Assembly (NCBI GenBank): GCA_008360975.2 | Contig: CM039199.1 | Location: forward strand, 2,868,530-2,932,529 | Length of the DNA stretch: 64,000 bases | Source: Lichenostomus cassidix | Taxonomy: Eukaryota; Chordata; Aves; Passeriformes; Meliphagidae | Direction of reading: 5' to 3' | Shown: positions 18,973-51,900 of the stretch, piece by piece | Position numbering within the stretch: the first letter of the stretch is position 1 | How the letters are laid out: every line of letters starts with the position of its first letter | Made by a program: the position numbers and the translations under genes | Notes under the pieces: model-generated | What the model was told of the DNA's origin: nothing | Databases searched by the model: none | What the model saw: the letters and a program-made list of their open reading frames with translations, nothing else

Positions 18973-21900
18973 ATGGACCGCATGAGCAGCACCATGAAGC
19001 AGGTGTCCAACCCGCTGCCCAAGGTGCTGAGCCGGCGGGCGGGCGGCGGCGGCCTGGAAGCGGAGCGGGAGAGCTTCGAGCGCGCCCAGGTGCGGGCGGG
19101 GCGGGGCGGGGCGGGGCGGGGATGCGAGCGGCGCGGATGGGAAGGTGCCGGCTGAGGGGCGGGGCCAGGCCGGGGCGGGGTCCGGTGGGGACAGCCCGGC
19201 AGGTACCGGAGCGGGTGAACGGGGCGGGGCTGTGCCGAGCGGGCGGGGTTATCCCGAGGGGGCGTGGCTTGTTTCAGTGGGCGGGGCTGTGTTGGGGGCG
19301 GGGCCAGCGCGAGATGCCCAACAGGTTGGTGTTGGCACAGGGGGCGGGGCTTGGATGGGTGGGCGTGGTTTGTATGGGTGGGCGGGGCCACTCGGGCGAG
19401 CTGGGGTCGTGCCAGTGGGCGGGGCTTCGGCAGGAAGGTGGAGATTGACAGGCTATGATGGCCCCGCCCACCCGGGAGGGCAGGGGTCGCCATGGAGGGG
19501 CAGCGATGGGGACCCCTTGTTTGGGGCTGAGCACAGCCCTGGAGGAGCCCCTGGGCAGCTCGGGGACATCGGGGTGCGGTGGCACCTGCCCAGCAGTGGC
19601 TTCCCAGCCTGGCCTCCCCACCGGTGGTCACTCAGCCGCTGGCCTGGGCCGCTGGCTCTCTGAGCACAGCCACAGCTGGGCAGCACGCCCAGGCCAGTGC
19701 CACCCTGTCCTTGGAGCCACCGCGGGGACACACAGCCTCTGTTCCCACTGGCTGGACAGGACGTGGAGTGGCTCTTTGGCCAGTGGGGTCAGTCACCCCT
19801 CTGCGCTCTGCTGCCGTGTCACTCAGGGACACCAGGTGGGACAGGGCAGGGGACAGGGTCTGTGATGCGGGTCACTCCTGGGAAGAGGCACCAACCTGTT
19901 GAAAAGCAGACAGAATTTGCTCCTCAGCAGCATCCAGAGTGTCCAGATGAGGCTCTTCACTCAGGTTTTGGGTGATGGACTGATGTCCTGCACAGAGGGG
20001 AAGGTGGCAGCCAAGCTGGAGTGGCAGCAAGGAGGCTGTGGTGGAAAAAGCTGGTGATTTGGGGAAAGGATATGCTTGGAGCAGCTGTGGACAGGTGTGG
20101 ACAAGGCATGGGGAGGGTGAAGAGTGAGGGATGGCAGCTAGAGGGACTTGGGGACAGCTTGGCCCTGCTCCATGCCCAGGGATAAAAGCACCAGCAAAAC
20201 AGAAACATCCAGACCTACTGTGGCAGAGGAAGGGAAACTGAGGCAGAAGCAGGGCAGAAATGGCACCAGTGGGATTGGACCTGGATGAGCCCAGAGTGGG
20301 AACAGCACATGGGAGATGGCTTAGGGATGGAAATAAACACTGAGGAGCAGCTCTGAGAGGGTTTTTCAGGAAGGAAACCCAGCAGGGTGAGAGGTTGCCT
20401 GCAGGATCACGTGCAGGGCTCTGCTCACCTGCTCGATCAGCTTACCTCAGACATCAATTATTCATTCCTGGTACCAAAGGTGGGACTGGGATTGGTTTTC
20501 TGCTGGAACCTGCAGGTTCCTTGTCTCAGCAACAGCCCCATGGGATGCCTGGAGCTCTCCTGGGCTCCCTGGGAGTCACAGTTTCCCGTGAAGGGCTGAG
20601 TGGAGAGGGTGGTGGAGCAGCACCCACATCCCTGTGAGCTGGATTTCATCTTCCTCATCTGATTTCCAGACTCCTGACACAGCATGTCCCTGTCTGGCTT
20701 TTCCTTCTTCTGTGCTTCAGCTCCATGCAATTCCCTTTCTCACTCATTTCACAGCCTCCCCCTTTTTTTCTTCTTTTTTTCTTTTTTTTTTTTTTTTGCA
20801 TAATTCTGTCTCACCAGTTTAGGGAACTTGCCAGGCACCCCTTTGGTTTTGGTCATCCAGTTTTTGTCCAACTTCTTCTTTCTGAGGATTTTTTAGAGGA
20901 ACTTGGTGGGTTTTGGTTTTTTTTTTCTTTTCGAAAGTGACTTATTTTAAGAAAACTTTCAACTGTCAAATGGCTTTCAAATGAAATTTTTACCTGTGTT
21001 TCTGCATGTACAGACTCCTTCCTCCCTCTCCTCCAAACCTGCCTGTCTCAGGGCAGTAGCACATGCACCACAAAGCCTATTTGGGGCTAAAAGAGCCCAG
21101 AAAATGTGTCCAAATGGGCCTCTGGGGAGCCTGAGGAACACCTGCTTGGGTTGGCAGCACCTGATTTCTGTGGTCTGAGTTCAGTTTGGAAGAACAAGAG
21201 CACCCTACGAAACCCTAATAGTGGGGAGGTCTGGTGCTGGGATGCTCCCATGGTGCTGGGATGCTCCTGTGGTAGTGGAATATTTCCATGGTAGTGGTAA
21301 ATTCTGGTGATGGAATGGTTCCATGGTGGTGGGATGCTCTTATGGTGGTGGGATAATCTGGTGGTGGGATGTTCTGGTGGTGGTGGGAAGCCTCCATGGT
21401 GGTTGGACACCTCCATGGTGGTCACTACATTACACAATGACTCTGCCCTGACAAGATCCATCTGCTGGCTTGCAGACAAACAGGAATAAATTCCCTAGCA
21501 GCCTCTTTTCTGCTCCTACAGTTGGTGAAGTGTCTCAGATTTCCTGGGAATGCAAATGTGGGAAACCTGAGGACATGCCCAGGTGTGGTGTCCCTTTCAT
21601 GCTGTCCTTGCTGCCTGCTGGGCAAGAGCAGCTCAGGGAAAACTGGACACAGCCAAGGGCTCCTCATCCTTTCCCATCAATGCTGATAGTTTTCATGGGA
21701 AGTTGAGCAACAGGGACACCAAATCCTGCAGTTTTGCTGCTGTTGGGATGCTCTGGGTGCAGCCCTGCTGTAGGAATATGAGTGTTTGCTGGTGTTTCAC
21801 AGGGTGATTCACCACCACTCATCCCCTCAGCCTCAACACAAACCTCTGGGCACAGCAAAAGCCACCAAGGGAGGAGAAAAAACACCCAAAGTGACAATTC

Positions 21901-24900
21901 TGCCGTATTTTAAGATAAATGTTTGTATTTCACACGGTGTCTGATGTTTCTCCAAGTTCTGCTGGTTGGATTGAGGGGCATGTCCTGGTGCTGGAGCTCT
22001 GCAGGGAAACAATTAAATTGTTTAATTGGTGCTTGGGATCTTCCCTCCTTGGGTCTTGTTCCTCTTTCCACACTGTAGTTGTCCACAGCAGACATCCTTG
22101 TGCCATGATGGAGCCAAGGAGTGAAATTCCTTCTGTGCTTGGAGAAATTCCTTGCCAGTTGGCAAAGACTGGATGTTCAACCATTGCATGAGCTGAGGTG
22201 TTGAGGGTGAAAACAGAGCTGGAAGGACACAAGGCAGGAATGATGCTCCAGGGGTGATGTCCCAGGCTCCCCTGCTCCTTCACTCATGTTTTGGACTGGA
22301 TAAAGGGTCTGGAAAAAAAGGATATTTCCTTTTTTTCCCAGCAGAGACACGGCTGGCAGGGCAATTGCAGACTGCCAGAGGTGGTGTGTGACATTGCCAA
22401 GCACCAGCTGGCCCCTGGAAGTGTGGAAAGATCTCCTTCCTGCCACAGCTCAGCTCTTCCTGCACCAATCCCTTCCCTCTTTGTGTAAACCCATCACGGG
22501 AGAGTGAAAATGCTCAGACAGCAAAACTGAGGGAAGTCCCCTACAAGTCACAGCAGGACATGCACTGAACTTCAGTCCTTGTCCTGCTTTGTGGGTTGTG
22601 AGTTGAAGGGAAGCTGCACATTGTGGTGGTGGTGTGTTGTCATCTCCTGGGCTGCAAAGTCACCAAATAACCCTTGTGTCTCCCATCCTGAGATGCCTGG
22701 CTGTGCTCCATCCTGTCCCACACCTGCAGGCTGCCCTGTCCTGAGTCAGTGTCCCAGGGATGAGGACATGAGGTGGAAACAGTGCCTGGGGACAGGGGGG
22801 GCTGTGGAAATTCCATGTTTGTTCTCCAAAGCTCGTGGCTGCCAGGGCTTTCTGCCAGCAGATGTGGCTGCATGCCCAGCACGGTCTGTGTGCCACAGGG
22901 ACAATTCCAAGGGTGAGCCATCCTGACAGTGGGGAGGAGACACTTCTTTGAAATTCCTGCAGAAAACCTAAAAAACTTGCATTTGAGGTTCTTTGGGTGC
23001 AGCATTTTTCTGGGGAAGTCACAAAGTAGCAAAGGGAAACTTGGGCTGCCCACTGCCACCACCACCTCTGGCACATCCACATGCTGGGTCCTTGGGCTGT
23101 GTGCAGCAATAAAAGCAATTTATTCCTCAGAAGGGACCCTGGAAAGACCTCTTTGCAGCAGAAGGTGATTGCTGAGCTGGCTGCATGTCCACTCCTGCCA
23201 TCAGAGTCCCCAGGGTGCTGCTGGGGATGTCACACCCTCCTGCTGAGGGTTGACCAGTGGGAAGGTGTGGCACATTTGTGTCGGGGAGATGCAGAACTCT
23301 GAACACAGCTGATGCCACATCTCCTCAGGAAGGTTTGAAGCCATTCCTCAGGGTCTGCAAGGCTGTTTTGCTCCCTGCCTTGCTGCTGGAGGAGCCTTCT
23401 CCAAAGCCAGGTGCAGAGAGATGGGGCAAAAGAAGGAGAAAAAGTATCAGGTACAAATGAAATGGATTTTTTTTTCTCCCCCAGTATCGGTTAATAAATC
23501 CTTTTGATGTGTGAACCAAACTTTTTCACAGCAGGTTAAGAGCAGATTTGTGCCCATCCTGTCCCTGCCATGGGCTGTGCCACCTCTGAGCCCCATTAAT
23601 GCAATTAATCCTTTTCTCCCATCATTTATATCATTGGGAATATGGGCTGCTATCTCCCAGCCCCAGCAGCCTGGCTGGTTTCATACCAGACCCAGCTCAG
23701 TTGCAAAGGAAATACCATTTTACTACTGAAAAAAAACAATTTTTGTGGTTCAGATGCTGCAGCCACCAACAGCTTTGCCAAGAACTTCAGCTCTTACACA
23801 GGAAATGAGGCTCCTTTCAAAGCACCAGAGTGGGGCTATATATATATATACAGCCTCTCCAAAAAGATATTTAAAGAAACATATTGACACTAGCAAGAAC
23901 AGGAAAAAATAGCTGCTGGCTGTGGGGAGCGAGGGCTGAAGGCAGCTGAGCCCATCCTGGGGGCGTAGGTGATGCAGGGGATTAATTCATGGCTCTTTCA
24001 TCTCCCAGAAAAGGACCTCCTGGGTTTTATGCTGTGTGAACCCCCATGCTTTCAGTCTCCTGGCTTTCCCTGGGAACTGGAGGTGCTGGGGATTGAATGC
24101 AGCTTCAGCAGTGAAGTAGTGAGTCATATCTCGTCTCCTTTCAGCAAGTCCCTCTTAGAAACTTATTTCCATCCCCAGGGGAAAGAAAATAGTTTTTCTT
24201 GTACCAGATATGGGGCTGCTTTTCTCGTTAGTGCGTGCAGGGATGGAGGGGATTAGGAGGTTTTTTTAGATATAGAAATATCTGTTGTAGATTCAGAAAT
24301 ATCTGAGATTTTTTTAATGTGGGGATGGACTCCAGAAGCAGCTGAACCTCAGGAGGATGAATAAATTTGGTGCTGAAAGTGCTGCCAGTAAATCCAGGAG
24401 CTTCTGCAGCTGGGAAAATGTGGTTTTGAGACCACCAAGTGACAAGGGGGGACTTTGCCCTGAATTACACCAGAAGCCAAGTAGGAAGACAAGGGTGCTG
24501 GGGAATGTTGCTGCCCCAAAATCCCCTTTGCCTCTTGCTCAGCATGTGCTCCCCACCAAGGATGTCCTGTGCTGAGGGGTGCAGGGGGCTCTTGCCCTCT
24601 GAAATGTATCCAGGCTAACTCCATCCATCTGCAGAGTTGAGGAGAAACAGCCAGGAAGGCAGGGTTTTCACTGAATTCCCCATCAGAGGACTCTTGACTG
24701 AGTGTGATCCCCTCTGCAGGGAGCATCACAGTCCAGGGAAAACAGTGGGGAAAGGCAGATAGGATGTGGGTACCTGACAGGAGGAGGGGTAACTCATCCC
24801 AGCTTTGCTGTCCCTGAAGAAGAAACCTCTGCACAGGGACTGGAGCTGCAGAGGGACAATTTTGGCTGAAAGGCTGAGAATCCAAGGATGGGTGTAAGGT

Positions 24901-27900
24901 GCCCATCACAGCTCCTGGTGCTGTGTGTGGCATGGAGCCAGGATGAGCATTGCCTGCTCCAGCACTGTCCAGTGCATGGCAGTGCAGAATGAGCCCCAGC
25001 ACCTGGATTTTGTGCAGAGTGAGCCCCAGCACCTGGATTCTGTGCAGAGTGAGCCCCAGCACCTGGATTCTGTGCAGAGTGAGCCCCAGCACCTGGATTC
25101 TGTGCAGAATGAGCCCCAGCACCTGGATTCTGTGCTTCAGATGGGATCCTCATCCCATCACCTGCTCCAGTACTGTCCAGCACCTGGATTCTGTGCAGAG
25201 TGAGCCCCAGCACCTGCATTCTGTGCCCATCCTCATCCCATCCCCTGCTGCTGGCTCTGCACACTCTGAACCAGGGACAGAGGGTTGGCAATCAGGGGTC
25301 ACACAGCAGGGCTGGAGGAAGGGCTGGATCCTGGCCCTCCTCCCTACCACCAGCTCGGCTGATTTATTTTGCACAGTCACCAAATCAGAAAACTTCCTGG
25401 GGACAGCCTGTTCCCCGGGTGACAGCAGGAACAGGCAGCACAGCCGGTGTTTTAGCCCGGATGTGAGAGTCCAGCCCACAGCCAGACTAATTACACATTG
25501 TGTGCTGTTCCAGGCTAAGCACAGGGCAGGGGGAGTGATCCCAGTGCACAGCAGAAAGGTGAATTATGTTTTCAAAGTCATATCATCACGTTGAATAGTT
25601 TATTATGGACTCACCAAGGGGGTTGGGTTGGAAGGGATCTTTAAAGCTCAGCTTGTTCCACCCCTTGCCATGGGCAGGAACACTTTCAACTAGACCAGGT
25701 TGCTCCAAACCCCATCCAGCCTGGCCTTGGACAATTCCAGGGATGGAAGTTGAGCTGTTGGAATTAATCCAGAGGAGGCCATGAAGATGTGCTGGAGCCT
25801 GGAGCCTCTGCTCTGGAGCCAGGCTGGGACACCTCAGGGTGTTCACCTGGAGAAGAGAAGGCTCTGGGGAGACCTTAGAGCCTCTTCCAGTGCCTAAAGC
25901 GGCTCTGGGAGAGCTGGAGAGGGACTTGGGACAAGGGCTGGAGGGACAGGACAAGGGGGAATGGCTTCAGATTGACAGAGTGGATAGATATAGGATGTTG
26001 GGAAGGAATTCCTGGCTGGGAGGGTGGTGAGGCTCTGGCGCAGGCTGCCCAGAGAAGCTGTGGCTGCTTCATTCCTGGCAGTGTCCAAGGCCATGTTGGA
26101 CAGGACTTGGAGCAGCCTGAAACAGTGGAAGGTGTTCCTGCCCATGGCAGGGGGTAGAACTGGATGATCTTTAAGATCTCTTCCACCCCAAACCAGCCTG
26201 GGATTCTGTGCTATGTGAGCTCAAGCTTTTCTTGTGCTCTTTATGAGTCCCAACGAGCCATGACTGCTGAGATCTCCCTACTGATGCCATCCCCTGTTTC
26301 CTGGGCTCTCAGAAGGAGAAGGGACAGTTCCTGGGGGTCCCTGAGGTTCTGGCACAAGCACCTTGCAACACCATTTGCACTTGTGAAACCCTGTATTCCT
26401 GTTCACTTCCATGTGAGCACAACGACTGGAAAAAGCTGTTTTCCAAGCAGTGTCTGCTTGTTCAAATAAAACACAATGCCACAGGCTCTTTTGGGAGTGC
26501 TGAGCTGCTCACATCCATCTTTTATTCCAATAAAAGAGACAAATGGTAACAATAAGCCACAAGTCTCCAGCCTGGCCCTGGTGAGAGAAGCCACTTCTCC
26601 CTTTCTCTGATGGAAGTTTCTTCTTTCCTGCATGGTGAGCATTTGGCACAACAGGAGGACCAAACACCCACCTGGGAAGGGCACAGGCTGATGGTGTTAA
26701 ACTGGGAATAATTGTCATCACATCAAGCTGGCCACCAGTCAGACTAGATAAAAATAGCATCAAAAATTATGGAAATTTTGGAATGAAGTAGCCACAGCTC
26801 AGCAGGGCTTTACCACTTTGCTCCACTGCCAAAGCAACAGAGGGTCTTCTGCACCTCAAGACTCCAGGATGGCACATTTGGGCAACCCCAGTTCCCCTTG
26901 AACCTGAGTTTCATGGCCAAACCATCAAACCAGCCTGGCAACCTCCCTATGAGCTGAGTAAGCCTAGAGCAGCTCTGGAGCTGCCTGAATCCTCAGTCCA
27001 CAATGTTCCCAGCCTCTGGATTGGTGCTTTTTGCATTGGTGGAAGCAAAGGCACTTTCTTGAGCACCATGGAGGGCACAGGCTCCAGGACAAAGCCTCCA
27101 TCACCTCTCTGGGAAACCCCTTCCAATGCTGGCCAACGCTTCCCATGAAGAAATCCCTCCTGATGTCCAACCTGCACCTCCCCTGGCTCAGCTTGAGGCG
27201 ATGCCCTCTTGTCCCATTGGTTGTCCCTGTTTTCCTGAGCCATGGTTACCAACTGTGCCAGCTTCAGGTGGCTCCATGTGGACCAACCAGTCCAGCTCTA
27301 CAACCCTCAGGGCACCACAGCACCACTTGGAGGAGATTTTCTGAGGTCTGAAGGGAATGCTGAAGTGGAGGCAGAGGAACACTTCGACTTCCTTGGTGTT
27401 GAAGAAGTCAGTAGGCTGGGAATGCCTCCTTTCCCAAGAAGAGATGCTTCTTCTGCACTAAGTCAGTGAAGGCATTGAAGAACTCATCTCTCCTGGTGGC
27501 ACTGTGCCCAGTTGGTGACCTGGTGGTGTTTTTCCAGCCAGGAATGTTTTGTTGCTTTTCGCAAATGGGAATGAAATGTTCCGACAGTCTGCGAGGCTTG
27601 GCTGCTCCTGCAGAGGTAAATACTTGTCTGGAGAGGGAAAAGGTGGGTGTTCCTGGGTTTGCTGGATTTTATGGTCACCTGGAACTCGCACAGACCATCC
27701 TGTGCTGCTGGCATTCATGGAGCAGGATTCAGGTGAAGCTGTTAACCCCTTCAGCAGCCTGGGGAAAGGAGAGCTGCATTTTGGTGGAGCTCCTTCCACC
27801 CTGTGCTCCCAGGGGACACTCCATGCCCTGTCCCTGCTCCCCATGCTACCTGTGACCCTCCCCAAGCACAGAGCTGTTTTGGGATGATGGATGGGGCCAC

Positions 27901-36900: not shown

Positions 36901-39900
36901 TTGCACATCTGCCTGGGATACTCTATACATCCCACTGGGAATGACCCAGGAGCACTGTGGGGCCAGGAATGGCTCTTCCCCCGTGTGTCCTCACTGCAGT
37001 GCACTGAACCACAGCAAGGAACTCGCCTGGGTAGAGCATGGAGGAAATTCCTTCCACCTCAGTGGATCCCTGAAGTGGTGGGATTTGTCCCCATAGGCTG
37101 CACCAGCCCTGGAATGGTTGGGTGCTGTCATTCCTGCTTAGTGCTTCCAGCTTTCCTGGCCACTGGGGAACTGGGGTTTCCCCTTGCTCCCAGGACTCTC
37201 CCAAAATTGCCTTTCAGTTAATTTCCAGATTTTCTCTTCGAGCTGCCTTGGCTCTTATTTTTGCCCCCTGGCTGAAGCTCCCCATGCTGTGAAGTCAGGT
37301 GGATTTGGAGCTCTCTGCCTTTGCCCCAAGTGCTTCCTGGCGGTGTCCAAATTGTGGGTTTTGCCAGCTGGAGCAGCTCAGCCCTGAGGAGCCACACAGC
37401 AACCATGACCTCGGATACTCAGGTTTCTGGGCTCTGCAGGAGACTCTGGATAGCAGCATTAACCACCTTCCCCCTGAACTGAGCATTTTGTTCAGGGGGG
37501 GAGCTGAAAGCTTGATTTGGAAAAAATAAGGTCAATGATGATGAGCTGATTTTAATTTGGGAGATTAAGGAGGGATGCTGGGAGCACAAAGCCTGTGAGT
37601 GGGGGGTGCACAGTCTGGCTTGGCTGCACGCAGGATCCAGTGGTATTACAGCATGTCACCAGTATCTATGGAAAAATTAATGTATCCTGCTTGTTATTTT
37701 AGAGGCTATTTTCCATGCAGGTGGCATTGTGGAGAAAATCCCATCCATCCTGTGCCTGTGGGAGGGACTGAGTTCGGCTGTGCTCTTTGCATAACTGCCT
37801 TAAGGTCTCTTCATGCAAATGAGCCATCAATACTTGATGACCAAGTGTTAATTGCAGTAGCGTCGCCTCTGGAAGCTGTGGCTTGGCTTCTTGGTGCCCT
37901 GGAAATCCTGGGCTGCACCTGCAGGACATGCAGCAGGGAGCAGAGGACATGGTATTGAATTCAGAGTGATGCTAAACCCAGCTAAGGGGGAATGAATTAA
38001 TTCCAGGAACTCTGTAAACCAGGGGGAACACTAGGCTGAGGGCTGGGCTGCACAGCAAGGATCCAAGAGCTCACTTTTCATGTTGAGAACATGACTGGGA
38101 GTTGTTTCCTGAAGGGCTTCCCTGCAGGGAGAGCACAAACCCTGGCCCCATGGTGGCACGTATAATGGCAAAATTGCTTTTTACCTGTCCCCAGAGCACT
38201 GACCCATGCTTCTTCCCAGGCTCAGAGCAGCTTCTAGACTCTGCTCCTGAAGGAGTTTGGCTGCTGCTTGAAACCATCTGGTCCAGCAAAACACATTTGG
38301 TCCGGCAAAAAACCCATGAGCTGTGTGCTCCGAGACAAGCAGTGCTGCCGAGCAGTGCTCTGTCGATCTGTCTGTCCATCCCGGGGATCTCACAGGGGCT
38401 TTAACAGCCACCTGAGGAAAACACAGCCTGCTCTTTGCCCTAAAAGCTCCCCCAAGGCTGCGATGAACTCAGTGCTTGTGGAGCTGGGTGTTGGGAGAGC
38501 TCCACAACCTCTGTCCCCTCGGGGCTGTGGGATCCTGTTATCTCATTAAGAGAGGCCAAGTCACCCTCCCCGAGTAAGTGGCTGAGCCGTGACTAGACTG
38601 CAGTAATCCCGGGGGATTAGCGTGTTGGCCAGGCTGGCCCCACAGCAGCACTTTGTTCTTCGCCTCTGAAGCGTCTATGCCGGCAAGCCAAGGGCCCGGG
38701 CAGTGCTTTGGGGTTGCTGTTAGGGGATTCACTGAGCGACAGAGGAATTGTTTGGGTTTCTTTTGTACCTCCCATCGGAAAATGTTCCTTGAGCACGAGG
38801 AGGAGCTGCGAAAAACCCAAATCCTCCTGCCTGGGTACTTTCCTGTCCCTCGGCAGGGTGGTTGTGGGCAGCAGGCCGTGCCTGCCCATGCGGTGGGCTT
38901 GGGCCAGGGGGTCATTACCATGCTGGCTTAATTGCTTTTGTTGTTGGAACCAAGATGCCAGCAGCTGAGTGGGCTCTGGAACAAGGGAACCCTGAGCAAG
39001 TCCCAGCCAGGCCCGCCAGGGTATCTTCACCCCCAGGCACAGAGGTGGGGCAGAGGATGGAGCAGGGGGGCTGACAGGGAACGGACCGGGGGGCAGACAC
39101 AGGGGTAGGGGGGCTGCTGGGGGTAAGAGAGGGGTCTGGCAGTGGAGCAGAGGGTCGGGCGGTGGGGCAGGGGATGGAGCAGGAGGGTGCAGGCGGTACA
39201 AGGGATGAGGCAGGGGACTGGGCAGCAGGACAGGGATGGGGCAGCAGGTCCGGCAGCGGGGCAAGGGTTCGATTGCGGTCGCGCAGGGCACGAAGCGGCG
39301 ATCTGGCAGCGGGTCGGCAGATGGAGGAGGGCTGGGGCGGCTGCCCCGGGGCGCTGCGGAGCTCCCCGCTCCCCCACCCCACCGAGGCGGGGGGCGCGGC
39401 GGTGCCGGGGGTGGGCGGGCGGTTCTGCGGGACTCCCCCCGCGCTCGTCCCCCGAGGGCTCCTTTGTTATTCCGGCCGAGCGCCGCGGCCGCACCGCCCC
39501 TCGCGGGAGCGCGCCCCGCGCCCCCCCTCACCCCCGGCCGCGCCGCCCCTCGCGGGAGCGCGCCCCGCGCCCCCCCGTCAGCCCCAGCCCCGCTCCCTCC
39601 CGCGCCCCCCCGCTCCGCTCCGCGCCGCTCCGCTCGCCGCCTCTGCCCGGCAGAACCTTCCAGCGCCGCCGCCCCGCGGGGCCGCCGCCATGGGCGCCTC
39701 CGCCGCGCCGCGCTGAGCCCGCAGCGCCGAGCCCGCCGGCCCGCCATGGAGCTGGGCAAGGTGGTAAGTGCTTGCGGCCGACCCCTGCCGACCCTCGCTC
39801 CGGGCTCCTTCGTGGCATCGCGGTTCGCATGCAGGGAAACTCCTTCCCGGGGCAGCTGGTTCCCCCGCACGCCGGCGGTGCCCGGAGGAGCGAGGGGAGC

Positions 39901-42900
39901 GGGGATGGTCGGTGCGGCGGCGGGAGCCGTGCGGGGCGCGGGGGGCTCGGCGGCTCGTCTCCGTGGTGATGCGGAGCTCCCCGGGCGGCTGCGGCTCCGT
40001 TCGCACAGCCCCGGGTGAGCAGCCTTCCCCCGGCACTCGGCCCGGCCGGGTTCAGGCCGTGCCACCAGCAGCCGTGCCCCGCTGTCCCCACGCGTCCGTG
40101 TCCCCGCGAGCACTCGTGTCCCCGTGCGTTCATGTCGCCATGTCCCCACGAGCACCTGTGTCCCTGTATCCCCGGGCACCTGTGTCCCTATGCCCGCTGC
40201 TCATGTCACAGCCCGAGGGATTGCCCCTTACCCGGGTGGAAGGAACGGAACAAGCTTGCGATGAGAAGCGGGTTTTTGGGGTCTGTGGCTACAAGGCAGC
40301 ATGGTCACCCCTGCGCTGCTCAGCCGGGAGGAAGGATTTGGCTTTTCCCGGTGCTCCAGCAGGTCCCTCCGGTGCGGCGTGGAGCCCACATGGTGGTGGC
40401 TGTTCCTGGCACCGTTGCAGGATCCAGACATCCTAGGGGGATAACAGGAGAGGGATGCCCCATCCTGCGTCTGAGAGTTGCTGCTCACCCAGAAGCATTG
40501 CAAGGAATGATTTCCATCAAAACTAGATGCTGGCTTAATTTGGGAATATCCCACTAGGGCAATGAGCACCCCTGTGTTCCTGCCAGGGTGATGCTTCCCA
40601 AGAAGAGTGAGTCCTGGATGGCAGCTGATCATGGAAATGCACATCTGGATATGAGCTCCTTGCATCTGCTCCTCAAGTCCTCCATCCTCACTCCTTTATC
40701 TCTTCCTGTTCCAAAAAATGCCCAAATATTTGCGTCAGCTGGGAAGCAGAAGACTCTGGTCAGCATGACTGGGAATGTTTTGGGAACGTCTGAAGGTGGT
40801 GAAAGACCTTCCTGGACCACTGACCCTGGCAGACAGAGCCACACTCCCTCCCCAGACGGAAATCACCACTGCTGGAAGAGATTATCCTTGCATAAAATCC
40901 CCATTTAAAATTAAAAGCCTGGATATTGGGGCAGCTCACGGGAAAGGCTCAAGCCATGGCAGAGCCAGCTGGGCACGTGGGGCAGGATTGACAGAGTGCC
41001 CTGAGCAGTAATTAAGAAAGAAGAGTAATGAGCTGATGTGCATGTTTTTCACTGAGGGATGGGGATCCTGGGGATCCCCCTGGATTTCTGCTTCTCCTCT
41101 GATCCAGCCCCCTGTGATGGGCTCTGGTTGTGCTGTGGGGTTGGAAGTGCCAGGCAGCAGCAGCCTGGGCTCTGAATTTTACAGTGTCAGCTTCCCCAGT
41201 GGTCCCTGTGAGGTCTGGCTCATGTAGCCTTGCTTTTTGCCAGCTGTTCTCCCCAAAATTGCTTTTCACCATCCTTTTTTCCCCCTAAAGTTTATTTATC
41301 TGTGTACTGGAAAAGTCCACATTCCTTCAACGGGATTTAAAAATCCCTTGTCCAAGTAATTAAACTCCAGAAGTTGTTTATGGCACTGGAGAAATCCAGT
41401 AGCCCAGCACTCCAAGTGCTGGTTCCCTGTGCTGAGCAGCTCACTCTGGTGAGCTCTCAGCTCTGCTGTTGATGGACCCAAACCCTCCCTGGGATCATTC
41501 CAGCTCTCCTCTCCTGGCATCAGGTGTCTCACTGGGGTGGTTGTCTTCCTTCTTTTCCCTTGCCTCTGAGGTGGAGGAGCAATCAGATCACACTGGGGTT
41601 CCTCTAATCCTACCCCATCTCTCCTAATGGTGTGGAGCTCAGAATTCTCACTAGAGGCTCTGGAAGAGCCAACAGTGGATCAGGTCCTTGCACATGCAGC
41701 TGATGGGAACATCCCCCTGTGGATCCCAATCTCTGCTGCCCTCAGGAGGAGGAGGAGCTGGGAGCTGGTGGAGTGGGCTGTCCAGGCACACTCCAAATGG
41801 GCATCCTACAACTTCAGTTTGGTTTTCCTGCTGGGATAACAGCACTACAGCTCTCCAGGGAAAGGCATGCTAGGAGGCATTCCAGCCTCGTGTGTCTCCT
41901 CATGGTCAGAGGCCTCTGACCCTCACACCACCCCTCCATTTCCTGGCTCAGGTGTTTTTTTCCCTGGAAACCCCACCTGTGCTGGAAGAGCTCCATAGCA
42001 CTCCTCCATGAGCCATTGCTGAGTGCCTGAGGGGCCATTGGTGTCATCAGCCTGAAGTCATTGTCCTCCTGGCCTCAGCAGAGCAGACCTGGAGGCAGCA
42101 ATGCCAGGGCAGCTCTCTGCCAAGAAAAGCATCTTGGAGATGCCATTGGATTCCAGTGTGGCTTATGGAGCCTGTTGCCATCTTCCCTGTGATGTGACTG
42201 TGTTTTGGGTGTTCCATGTTCAGTCTGTGGGACAAGGTGACCCCCCTGGTGCCACCTGGGGCTCAGGACTGTCTCTGGACACCTTGGTCCTCCTCCTGCT
42301 GGCATCTGGGCTGGTGGCATCAGCATCTCCTCCTGGAGAGGGACATCTGGATACACTGCCACTGGGAGTGACCCTGGTGGATGCAATGAGGTTTTGGGGT
42401 CTCTGTCACTGGAATACATCTTTGACTGGGGGAAGATGGTTGTTTTTATGGCCCAGGCACTGGGAAATCTGAGACCTGTGTCATTCTGGGAATTATTCTC
42501 ATCTGGAGGGAGCAGGAGGTGAGAAGAGCAGCAGCACCTTTGGGGAGATACTCAGCCTGGACAAGGAGCTTCATCCCCAGAGCAGCTCCAGCATGTAGCC
42601 AGCCAGCAGAGGAGCACTTGCTTTCCAAACTCATGGATCCAGCAGCAGATGCAGCCAAATAGCCTGGATTAAGTGGTGGGAAGGTATTTTTCACATCTCC
42701 CCACTCCCTGCTCACAGGAAACCTATGGGACTGAGCAGGAAGACTCGGTTGCACTGAGCATCCTCCTATCCAGTGTGTAGAAATACATCCCTGGATTTTA
42801 CATCCTATGTGGCCAGCCAGCCCTGCCAGCACTGCTTTCCTGCCTTCCTGCCTCCCTTTCCCTCTGGCTGCTGGCAGGCACAAAGCCAGGCTTGTTCCCT

Positions 42901-45900: not shown

Positions 45901-48900
45901 GGGATGGGGCTGCAAACACCACAGAGCAGCAGAGCTGGTTCATCCTGGGACATCAGGACACAGTTTCAGCTAAGGGGGTGCTTGGCTCTGGGCTGGGGGT
46001 GCAGCTGGTTGGGGTCTCTTTTCTCAGCCCATCATTGTTCCCACTCCAGCTGACACATGTTTTGGTGGCAGAGGGACTTCCTGGAGGATTGGGGCTGTAC
46101 CCCACCACATTTGGGGCTCCTGTGGGCTACTCCAGCTCTGCTCAGCACAGAGTCACCAGGGTCTGTAGGGATGGAGCCAGGTGGGGCCACCTCAGAGAGG
46201 GCCAGGAAGCAGGGTGGCAGCAAGGATTGCAGTGAGGAAGGTGTTGGAGTTAATCCCACAGCTTTAATTGGTTTATATCAGTAATGAGCTACTTCTGGCA
46301 GTGCTGAGCCAGATGGTTCCTTCCCTTGGCAGCATGGTGTTCAGGGAGCAGGTGCCAGGGAAGCACTTGGTGATGTGGGAGCTTGGGGAGAGGGTGACCC
46401 CGAGCTGGCATCATTGTGTCCCCGTGTGGGATCAGAAATGGGGTAGAGTTAAAAATCCTGCCTGGAAAATGCTTCCAGTGACTGTCACTGCCTTCCATGG
46501 GATAAATGCTGGCTGGCTCTGCCCAGGCTCCTCAGGGTGAACTCCCCAAGGTCCTCAACACCTGCGTGGCAAGTCCTGCCTGTGGGTTCCACTCCTGTCC
46601 CTCTGATCTGTGGAGCAGTCAGGACCTTGCCAGGCAGTGCTGGCAGTGCTCTTGCCATTCCACTGCTCCATTCTCAGCGCCCCCCAAATTGTCCTCCCCA
46701 TTCAGCCCCCTCCAAAAGTGGGGTAGGAGCTGCCAGTCGCTGCCCACGACCCAAGGGCAGGGGAGGGATTTGCCTTCCCTCTGCCTGTCCCACCACTCCG
46801 AGGGCAGCAGAGGGTTCTTTGTGGGCACTGCTTTAATTGCATCGTTATTATCCTGAGTAAATGAGTCCTGGCAGCAGCTGAACCTGCTGGATGCCAACTG
46901 CATCCCAGAAAGGCATCCGGGAAAGGTCAGCATCCAGCTGGCATGAGCAGGGACTGGGGACCTGGATGGGACCCAAGCACTGGCAGGTGCTGGCAGAGCC
47001 AGAGGGTCTCAGTGAGTGAGGGGGGACAGGGAGGGAGCCTCAACCCTTCCCATTTCACCCCCTCCATCGCTTCTCTCTTGCAGACCGTCAGCATCAATAA
47101 GGCCATTAATGCGCAGGAAGTGGCTGTCAAGGAGAAACACGCCAGGAATATCCTTCCCAAAGCTGGCCCTGGGACAAGGAGGGGTGGAGCAGGGCTGGGG
47201 CTGCCTGGAAAAGGGGCAGCATCAAGAGGGTGTGTGAGGAGAGGTGCCTGGGGTGCTGGGGATGGCTGGATGGGACCTTGGAGGGCTATTAATGACATTG
47301 GGTATTTTTCCAGCGTGGCACAGGGTTCCTGCTCCTGCTGGCACAGCCTTTGAATGTGTCCAGGCTGGTGCTCTCAGCTCTGCCAGCCCATGAGAGGGCG
47401 GGAGGGGAACCTGCTGGGGTGCCTGCAGCAGGTTGGGATGCTGCCACCAAAAGTGGATCCTCAGCGTCCCAGCCAGACACCTGGGAATGCTCAGCAGGGG
47501 CACAGCCCAGCCTTGCATGTGCCATGGTGCTCCCAGAGCAGGGCTGCGGGAGAGAGGGTTTTGGGGACATTTTGGGGACAGCACATGCCTGGGCTGGGCG
47601 GTGTGGTGGCCTGAGCCCCCTGAGCTCTTAGGGTTCAGCTGGCTTTGGGTGGCCATTCTCCATCAGCAAAGGGCAAAAGAGTGTTTCCTTGACCACTGGC
47701 ACCGTGCATCCTGGGCACACACCATGAGAAGGGAGCCCAGACCTTCTGGTCAGTGGTGAACAGACTGCCTCTGTCCGGCAATGCTGTGCTCTGCTGGAAG
47801 TTCTGCCATGTCTTCCACAAGCTCCTCCGGGATGGACATTCCAATGTGAGTGCCCAGAGCTCAGCCTGGGGACAAAGCCTTTCCCCTGCAGGGCTGCACT
47901 GGATGGTGGGAGACACTGGAGGGTCATTCTCTTCCTGGGGTGGCAGTCCTGGGCTGGGGACTGCAGAGGGTCAGTGCATTCCTGGGGGTCAATCCTGACT
48001 GGGGACTGCAGCCAGAGCCCTCCTGAAGGGTCAGTGCCCTCCTGGGGGTCAATCCTGAGTGCCAGAGCCCCTCTGGTGCTGCCCTGCCCACAAACCTGTG
48101 TGCCTCAAACCCCAGTGCTGATGGCAGTGCTGGTGCCACAGGAAACTGCTCAGCATCAGTGCAGGAGCTGGCAGCAAGGATCCTCCTTGGGGAAACTGAG
48201 GCACCCAGGGCTGGTGGTGGTGATAAAGGATCAGGAATGCATCAAGACCTCCCATTCCTCATCCTGTTCGTGGTTTCAAGAATGCAACACCATGTCCTGG
48301 TGCTCTGCCTGCTGATTGTCACCATCATTTCTCCAGGTCCTGAAAGACTCTGTGCGATACAAGAATGAGCTGAGTGACATGAGCAGGATGTGGGTGAGTG
48401 ACCAACCCTGCCAGACATGGGGAGGACACCCTGGGGATCCCTCAGCCGGGCTGGGAGGGTGTAGGCTTGGGGGGTTCCCTCTTTCCCTCTGCCAGGAAGC
48501 AGAGCACAGCCATGGCTGACCTGTCATCACCTCCCTGGACTGAGTTTCAGTTGCATTTGGTGTCCCCTCCCACCAAAATCAAATGCCTCCTTCCTATTTT
48601 ATGGCAAAACATGGTAAAAACTCTGCTCTGACAGTCAAATGAAGCACTGAAACCTGCAGAGAAGGTGATGAGAAGGTCCTGACTAAATCTGTTCAGTACA
48701 GCCAGCCTGCATCCGGTTTGGCTGTGGTTTTGGGGAGATAAGAGAGTGATTATCATGTAGAAAAAAAGCTTTTCCACAGCCTGCCATGCATCTCAACAGC
48801 TTTTTTTTGTCCCCAGGGCCACCTGAGTGAGGGCTACGGGCAGCTCTGCAGCATCTACCTCAAACTGCTGAGAACCAAGATGGAATTTCACACCAAGGTA

Positions 48901-51900
48901 AGTTCCCCCACCAAGGCTGCAGCACAGGATGGCACTGGGGTGACAGCAATGGACTGGCATGACTATCCTGCTTTCTCCATGAAATATTCCTAAAGCTGCC
49001 AGTGGTAATCAAAATTGGGTCCAAAATGGCCCAAGGACCAATGCTTTGTGGGTGGCAGGATTGCTGGTGGCCCAGAGCTCCTAGGGCTGCGCTAGGAGTT
49101 GGTGGGTTACAAGCAGTAGGAAACACACACCCCCCTTCCCCCCCAGCTGTCGTAGATAGACAAAGGGGGAAGAATTCTGATGAAAGAGGTGTTTCCTGTG
49201 TCCATCACCCTGTTTTGGAAATGTGATGTGACCTTCCCCAAAATGCTAGGACAGGTACCCCCTGGAGCAGATACCACTCCATCCCCTCCAGCTCTCTGCT
49301 GGCAGCTCCATCTCCTCCCTGCCTGGCAGGTTTCTCAGCCTAGGGACAATTGGGTTTTCTTGCTGGGAAGAGCACAGACACCATGGATTAGGGATGCTCT
49401 GGTCACCCTGTGTTGCCTCCCTTTTCCCCCACATCCTTCCCCTGGCTCATCCAAGAGCTGGCTTTGAGTCCCCAGGAGCACAGCCCTGGTGCTCCCAGAG
49501 CTGTGGCCAGAGCAGGAGATCCTCTGGAACCTTTTCCCAATGCCTGTTTCCCTCGCAGAATCCCCGATTCCCTGGAAATCTGCAGATGTCTGACCGGCAG
49601 CTGGATGAGGCTGGGGAGAACGATGTCAATAACTTGTGAGTGAGGGGCAGGGGAAGCTCTGGGAGGGGGTGGGTGTAGGAGGGGTGAATGATCTGCCCAG
49701 GAGCACCATCAAGCAGGGACAGGACCTTCCTCCTGCCCCCTGCCCTGCCACAGGTCCTGGAAGCAGGCAGAGCCCCAGGCAAGGCTGGTGCATCCACACT
49801 AGAGCACCCTCATCATTTTAGGGTGGCACCTGGCAGAGGTTGAGGCTCATGGGTGGCCTTGGGGACAGTCCCCAACCATCCTCAACCCTGTTTCCTAGTT
49901 TTCAGCTGACGGTGGAGATGTTTGACTACCTGGAGTGTGAGCTGAACCTCTTCCAGACAGGTAAAGCCCCACATTACTCTGAGAGGGTGGAGTGGGAGAT
50001 CTGCAGGAATCCAAGCTGGAGGAGGCTCTGACAGGGGGTGTTGGCTGAGGGCACCACAGCTCAGCTCTTCTGTGGGCACTTCACCTGAATTATGGTTCAA
50101 CAAGGCCAAGTGGAAGGTGCTGCATCGGGGTCAGGGCAGCCCCTGGTGTCAATCCAGGCTGGAGGGTGAAAGGATGGAGAGCAGCCCTGCTGGGAAGGAC
50201 TTGGGGCTGCTGGAGGATGAGAAGCTCAACATGCCCCAGCCATGTGTGTCCCAAAACCCCCTGTGCCCTCGGCTGATCCCCTAGCATGGGCAGCAGGTGA
50301 CAGAGGGATTCTGCCCCTCTGTACTGCTCAGGTGAGACCTCACCTGCAGAGCTGCCCCAGCCCTGGGCTCCCAGCACAGGAAGGATATGGTGCTGCTGGA
50401 GAGAGTCCAGAGGAGGCCACAGAGATGCTCTGAGGGCTAGAGCCCCTCTGCTCTGGAGCCAGGCTGGGAGAGCTGGGGGTGTTCACCTGGAGAGGAGAAA
50501 GCTCCAGGAAGACCTTAGAGCTCCTGTCAGAGCCTAAAGGGGCTCCAGGAGAGCTGGAGAGGGACTTTGAACAAGGTGCTGGAGTGACAGGACACAAGGA
50601 ATGGCTTCCCAGTGCCAGAGGGCAGGGAGAGATGGGATATTGGGAAGGAATTGTTCCCTGTGAGGGTACGGAGGCTCTGGCACAGGGTGCCCAGAGAAGC
50701 TGTGGCTGCCCCATCCCTGGAAGTGTTGGACAGGGCTTGGAGCAGCCTGGGATGGTGGAAGGCGTTGGAATGAGATGGTCTCCAGATTCTCCCAGCTGGT
50801 TTTAGAGCATCTTTCCTCTGGCACACCCAGCACACTCAAGTGCCAGTGGGACAACAGTGACAGGCAGAGCACAGGGGCTGCATGTCAGCTCTGCCTGGGG
50901 ACATGGCTGGGGCTTAGGCCCGGCTGGAGGCCCATGGTGCCAGGCTGGAGTGTTCCCAGGCCTGGGTGGGAATTTCCCCTCCTGCTGAGCTCTCAAACAG
51001 CTGCAGGGCAGCAGGCTGTGTCCCCAAGGGCCAGGGTGTATCTTGCTCCATCCAGCTGAAGGAAGGGCTCTCACTCCAGATGACATCTGTGGATTTGGCA
51101 GATACAGTGTGGCACCCTCTGGTGCTGCCAGTGCTGCCAGGTCTGATCCTGCCCTCCTTGCCCTCCTTCCCTGCAGTGTTCAGCTCCCTGGACATGTCCC
51201 GCTCGGTGTCGGTGACAGCAGCAGGACAGTGCCGCCTGGCGCCGCTCATCCAGGTGATCCTGGACTGCAGCCACCTCTACGACTACACTGTCAAGCTGCT
51301 CTTCAAGCTGCACTCCTGTGAGTGTCCCCAGCACCTCTGCAGGGCAGGGGGGACACAGAGGGAGGCACTGGGGCCACCACCCTGCTCGGCCTGGGTTGTT
51401 CACCACCACCTCGTCCCCAGCCTCTTTTGGGGAGTGAAGGGAGTCACCAGGGCAGGGAGGTGCAAAACCTATATCCTTCAGGGTCTGGAATTGCAGTGGC
51501 AGTCGCCAGCCCACACTTTTCCCTGCTCTGGGGGGTGTGGGGTGTGGTCTCCTCCTGCAGCAAGACACTGCCTGGAGGTTTGGACCTCCAGAGGAGGGTA
51601 GCCATCTCTGGGAAAGAGCCAAACCTCCTTGTGGCTGTGCTGATGGGTTGTTCCCTGATGCGTGAAGACACCCAGTGACATTTCTACTTGCTGCTTCTTG
51701 CAGGTCTGCCGGCAGATACACTGCAGGGCCACCGGGATCGCTTCCTGGAGCAGTTCCGAAAGTAAGTGCCCAGACCTGGAGCATTGGTGCTCTGGGAGTG
51801 CTCCCAAGGCATTGAGGTTAAAAATGACTGAGCAGAGACATGATTATGTAGGTAACCAAAACAAAAACTGGCCACTGAGAGCAGGGAGGGGATGTCATGG

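Follow-up and report, generated by a model that had tools for sequence, protein, structure and literature searches.

The 64-kb window (the whole stretch of DNA that was analysed, 64,000 nucleotides) carries the gene HIP1, as the first-pass annotation had named it. The identification agrees with three lines of evidence: the 70 residues joined from exons 2 and 3 match the Pfam ANTH domain (E 3.2e-25), the closest solved structure to this joined stretch is the HIP1R ANTH domain, and the exons in the window match a human HIP1 sequence co-linearly, starting with exon 1 and continuing almost to the end, the match to this probe being weak between about 55.2 and 57.6 kb. The numbering of exons 2 and 3 holds as well, because HIP1 exon 1 was located at 18973-19089; by eye, the boundaries of intron 1 read CAG/GTGCGG...TTGCAG (a slash marks an exon-intron boundary here and below). 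The Rfam scan of the 64-kb window at gathering cut-offs detected no RNA gene. On the minus strand, an open frame of a short repeated peptide at 24352-25149 suggests tandemly repeated units of about 30 nt, and the longest stop-free frame of the window, a putative ORF of 527 codons, lies at 38620-40200 within HIP1 intron 1. The features of HIP1 that concern us are as follows.

18973..19089, plus strand: HIP1 exon 1, coding part (MDRM...ERAQ), then CAG/GTGCGGG
47084..47147, plus strand: HIP1 exon 2, 64 nt, end ...GCC AGG A, phase 1
47148..47702, plus strand: predicted U12-type AT-AC intron 2, 555 nt
47148..47155, plus strand: U12-type 5' splice site ATATCCTT, 8 of 8 against RTATCCTT
47351..47353, plus strand: TGA, the first stop met in frame on retention of intron 2, 204 nt beyond the donor
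47685..47693, plus strand: U12-type branch motif TTCCTTGAC, 9 of 9 against TTCCTTRAY
47701..47702, plus strand: 3' splice site AC (GGCAC/CGTGC)
47703..47845, plus strand: HIP1 exon 3, 143 nt, equal in length to the matching exon in four paralogues

U12-type introns have the consensus RTATCCTT at the 5' splice site and TTCCTTRAY at the branch motif. The 5' end of HIP1 intron 2 reads ATATCCTTCC, and the candidate branch A is at 47692, at a distance of 10 nt from the last base of the intron and of 11 from the first base of the exon; the intron coordinates, the ATATCCTT start, the CAC end and the TTCCTTGAC motif with its A ten bases from the end, all of which had been annotated from the sequence, proved exact. 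The optimum distance between branch and 3' splice site in U12-type introns is reported as 11-13 nt (PMC3584512), slightly above the 10 nt of HIP1; the corresponding distance in HIP1R is 12 nt. The termini are matched in both genes (AT-AC in HIP1 intron 2, GT-AG in its HIP1R counterpart). U12-type introns lack a distinct polypyrimidine tract ahead of the 3' splice site. The pyrimidine fraction at -20..-5 of HIP1 intron 2, a stretch that includes the branch motif, is 0.69, and this measure does not tell U12 from U2 types, because the values of the U2-type paralogue introns (0.56, 1.0 and 0.75) straddle it. Exon 2 supplies the first base of the split codon and exon 3 the other two (phase 1), giving VKEKHARTCILGTHHEKG, and the 47147/47703 join reads VKEKHA-R-T-C-I-L-GTHHEKG, an ANTH stretch without interruption; the claim that splicing here restores R-T-C-I-L within the ANTH domain is thus borne out by the joined sequence.

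The ANTH search of the host genome (1.10 Gb, 514 contigs) returned 12 matches at six loci. One of these (L002) is HIP1R, in which a 419-nt intron lies at the same codon and phase (phase 1) as HIP1 intron 2, with the donor CGCC/GTATCCTTTC, the branch motif ATCCTTGAC and the acceptor ...GGAAG/GGATC, the branch A being 12 nt from the intron end (final AG). Judged by these sites, it is a GT-AG subtype intron with U12-type sites. The HIP1R junction is supported by a solved protein: of the 68 residues compared, 66 in the joined exons are identical to the HIP1R chain. Comparison with HIP1R, which had been proposed as a check, thus shows that both genes, in one genome, have the same codon split in phase 1 by an intron with U12-type sites. 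If the HIP1R intron were retained, the first in-frame stop would be met 69 nt beyond the donor. A second perfect U12-type 5' site (GTATCCTTGAC) overlaps the HIP1R branch motif at position 1483 of L002, on the gene strand.

U12-like motifs alone are not decisive, because at least one complete set occurred in 15 of 300 simulated first-order random 64-kb sequences; RTATCCTT itself is present six times in the window. Both counts leave room for an ordinary GT-AG intron with another exon boundary, beside which the AT-AC motifs would have arisen by chance. For a junction fixed between exons 2 and 3, however, the full U12 match has p of about 4e-9 under the base composition. Among 27 GT/GC donors (47085-47300) and 15 AG acceptors (47560-47800), 64 combinations were in frame and free of stops, yet none of the 64 kept the right protein length (the nearest was one residue off), in agreement with the annotated statement that no GT-AG pair keeps the protein. 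The intron at the same place in HIP1R, with a join that fits the solved protein, is also U12-type, and we regard an ordinary GT-AG intron at this junction as highly improbable.

A spliced-alignment test in which any dinucleotides could compete was applied, with human HIP1 as the probe, to 21 HIP1 junctions outside the stretch of about 55.2-57.6 kb, where similarity to the probe is weak. AT-AC was the sole class at the top score at the exon 2/3 junction; at the other 20 junctions, GT-AG was tied best in 18 and slightly lower in two (88 versus 89 and 113 versus 119). The U12 5'-site matches at these 20 junctions were 2-4 of 8, against 8 of 8 at exon 2/3. A lone ATATCCTT occurs at 51471-51478 within the HIP1 intron 51318-51703, where the only U12 branch motif on the same strand lies upstream of it. 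AT-AC ends alone do not determine the spliceosome, and some sodium-channel introns with such ends are reported to be removed by the major (U2) spliceosome (PMC2831892). For HIP1 intron 2 this is equally hard to credit: U2-type AT-AC introns are described as having G at +5 (PMC2831892), but HIP1 intron 2 has C at this position and carries a full U12 branch motif.

Three of the four minor snRNA genes were identified in the host genome, each over the cut-off and with the Rfam model spanned whole: U12 (150 bits), U6atac (133 bits) and U11 (109 bits); each search scored 40-46 candidates only, and the copy numbers are lower bounds. A second U6atac-like copy (C6:29517777-29517895, L011; 81 bits) without AAAGGAG is probably a degraded copy. 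Segments of U12, U6atac and U11 pair with splice and branch sites in minor splicing, and the genes contain segments complementary to the intron sites (GTAAGGA in U12, AAAGGAG in U6atac and AAAAAGGG at the start of U11). In the predicted duplexes, U11 pairs with TCCTT of the HIP1 and HIP1R introns, and U12 pairs with both branch motifs, leaving the HIP1 branch A unpaired; the bulge of the HIP1R duplex with U12 is the G preceding the branch A. The expected U6atac segment is paired with the HIP1R 5' site, and the best predicted duplex of the HIP1 5' site with U6atac uses the neighbouring GAAGG (19-23), not the expected AAGGA.

With the sites in HIP1, the corresponding intron of HIP1R and the minor snRNA genes in the genome all pointing the same way, the annotated class stands, and 47148-47702 of HIP1 is almost certainly an AT-AC intron of the U12 type. 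In this case ATATCCTT and TTCCTTGAC would serve as recognition sites for the U11 and U12 snRNPs, before U6atac takes over at the 5' site and 47147 is joined to 47703 in phase 1. A retained intron 2 would yield a truncated ANTH domain or a degraded message, because translation would meet the stop 204 nt into the intron. The best reading is that removal of intron 2 is needed for full-length HIP1; we infer from the sites and the reading frame that splicing proceeds at this junction, that the candidate branch A is used and that unspliced message is degraded, in which case HIP1 output would depend on the minor spliceosome. Slow removal of U12 introns has been reported (PMC2426677), and a rate-limiting role of HIP1 intron 2 is therefore possible.

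An intron at the HIP1 intron 2 codon, again in phase 1, is also found in three AP180/CALM-type genes (exon 1 loci L014, L021 and L026), two of which we take to be PICALM and SNAP91. It lies three residues past the conserved K-x-K-H and is U2-type in all three: the donors GTGAGTACC, GTGAGCATC and GTGAGTAGG match the U12 5' site at 2, 4 and 2 of 8 positions and GTRAGT at 6, 5 and 6 of 6 positions, respectively. The third gene, an AP180/CALM-type ANTH gene besides the PICALM- and SNAP91-like ones, is at C7:8361196-8361342 and upstream (L005, L026), and has the same first intron position and the same 143-nt exon as these two. Comparison of HIP1, HIP1R and the AP180/CALM-type genes thus reveals AT-AC U12, GT-AG U12 and GT-AG U2 introns at one position. 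The downstream exon is 143 nt long and ends in phase 0 in all five genes. A MAFFT alignment of four of them (the C7 copy was left out) has no gaps up to the junction and for a few residues beyond, with gaps between the families deeper in the 143-nt exon, so that for the far end of this exon the correspondence is one of length and phase only. The sixth ANTH locus (C17:2092072-2092386) is a weak match (27.9 bits, profile 3-107) in one open frame that crosses the position of HIP1 intron 2, and thus has no intron there; it could be a retrocopy or else a related gene of the ENTH type.

Changes of this kind have been documented, both as switching of U12 subtype and as conversion from U12 to U2 (PMC2831892; PMC7367187; PMC10639083); conversion is thought to proceed mainly from U12 to U2, and more often from the GT-AG subtype (PMC2831892; PMC7367187; PMC10639083). 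Among the intron clusters reported in PMC2831892, 36 contain both subtypes and 87 contain U12 and U2 introns, 8 of the 87 also having both subtypes. The switched and converted clusters resemble the ANTH genes in having AT-AC U12, GT-AG U12 and GT-AG U2 introns at one position, although they consist of orthologues of several species (PMC2831892) and the ANTH series of paralogues in one genome. AT-AC introns are given as 18% of the U12 introns of chicken (PMC7367187). The U12-type AT-AC intron listed for SMYD2 (PMC7367187, Table 1) is like that of HIP1 in its ATATCCTT, its TTCCTTGAC branch motif, its GCAC end and its phase 1, but belongs to another gene, and the distance from branch to end in HIP1 is 10 nt. 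The AP4 epsilon intron (PMC9120149) parallels the ANTH case: members of a trafficking family that arose by old duplications have an intron at one position, which in one of them is U12-type; the term 'ANTH' is absent from the main text of PMC9120149. Among the papers listed by our literature searches, none links HIP1 or HIP1R with minor introns, and the records combining HIP1 and ZRSR2 were, by title and the start of the abstract, lists of disease and cancer genes, or reviews, only. The HIP1 U12 intron may already be listed in the curated U12 databases (U12DB, IAOD and MIDB) or in supplements.

The distribution among the ANTH genes suggests that the intron is old and that its splicing type came to differ among related genes. 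The predicted U12-type intron is older than the duplication of HIP1 and HIP1R, since its counterpart in HIP1R interrupts the identical codon in the same phase and is U12-type too; the terminal dinucleotides would then have changed in one of the two after the duplication. An extension of its origin to before the split from AP180/CALM is plausible, and the U2-type intron of the AP180/CALM-type genes would, in the simplest case, be a conversion of the ancestral U12 intron. We infer this order of changes from the comparison of the paralogues. As a tentative scenario, to which we give a little less than an even chance, a U12-type intron was already present at this codon in the common ancestor of HIP1/Sla2 and AP180/CALM; HIP1 and HIP1R would have kept the minor spliceosome through two subtypes, and AP180/CALM would have converted to U2. 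If so, one branch of endocytic adaptors still depends on minor splicing, from which its sister branch has been released.

Independent origins, which concern the history of the intron and not the U12 call, would account for the same pattern if the U12 intron of HIP1/HIP1R and the U2 intron of AP180/CALM had been inserted separately at a favoured site, or if an ancestral U2 intron had become U12. Parallel gain is on record, with 5.0-5.4% common positions between separately acquired genes, and few U12 losses and conversions are inferred before LECA (both PMC9120149); a change from U2 to U12 has been reported once, in flies (PMC2831892). Our comparison, moreover, covers one genome, and its sixth ANTH locus lacks an intron at this position. 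Against separate insertion, however, the codon and phase are the same in five of the five genes, the four aligned genes are ungapped to just past the junction, and the downstream exon of 143 nt ending in phase 0 is common to all five (its far end being matched by length and phase only), and we consider independent origins unlikely. The five ANTH paralogues of one genome make up a small series provided by nature (AT-AC U12, GT-AG U12 and GT-AG U2), suited to the study of subtype switching and conversion of an intron beside an exon of fixed length. If the U12-type reading is borne out, HIP1 and HIP1R would count among the genes that should require the minor spliceosome for a full-length message, and clathrin-mediated endocytosis would be linked to defects of minor splicing.
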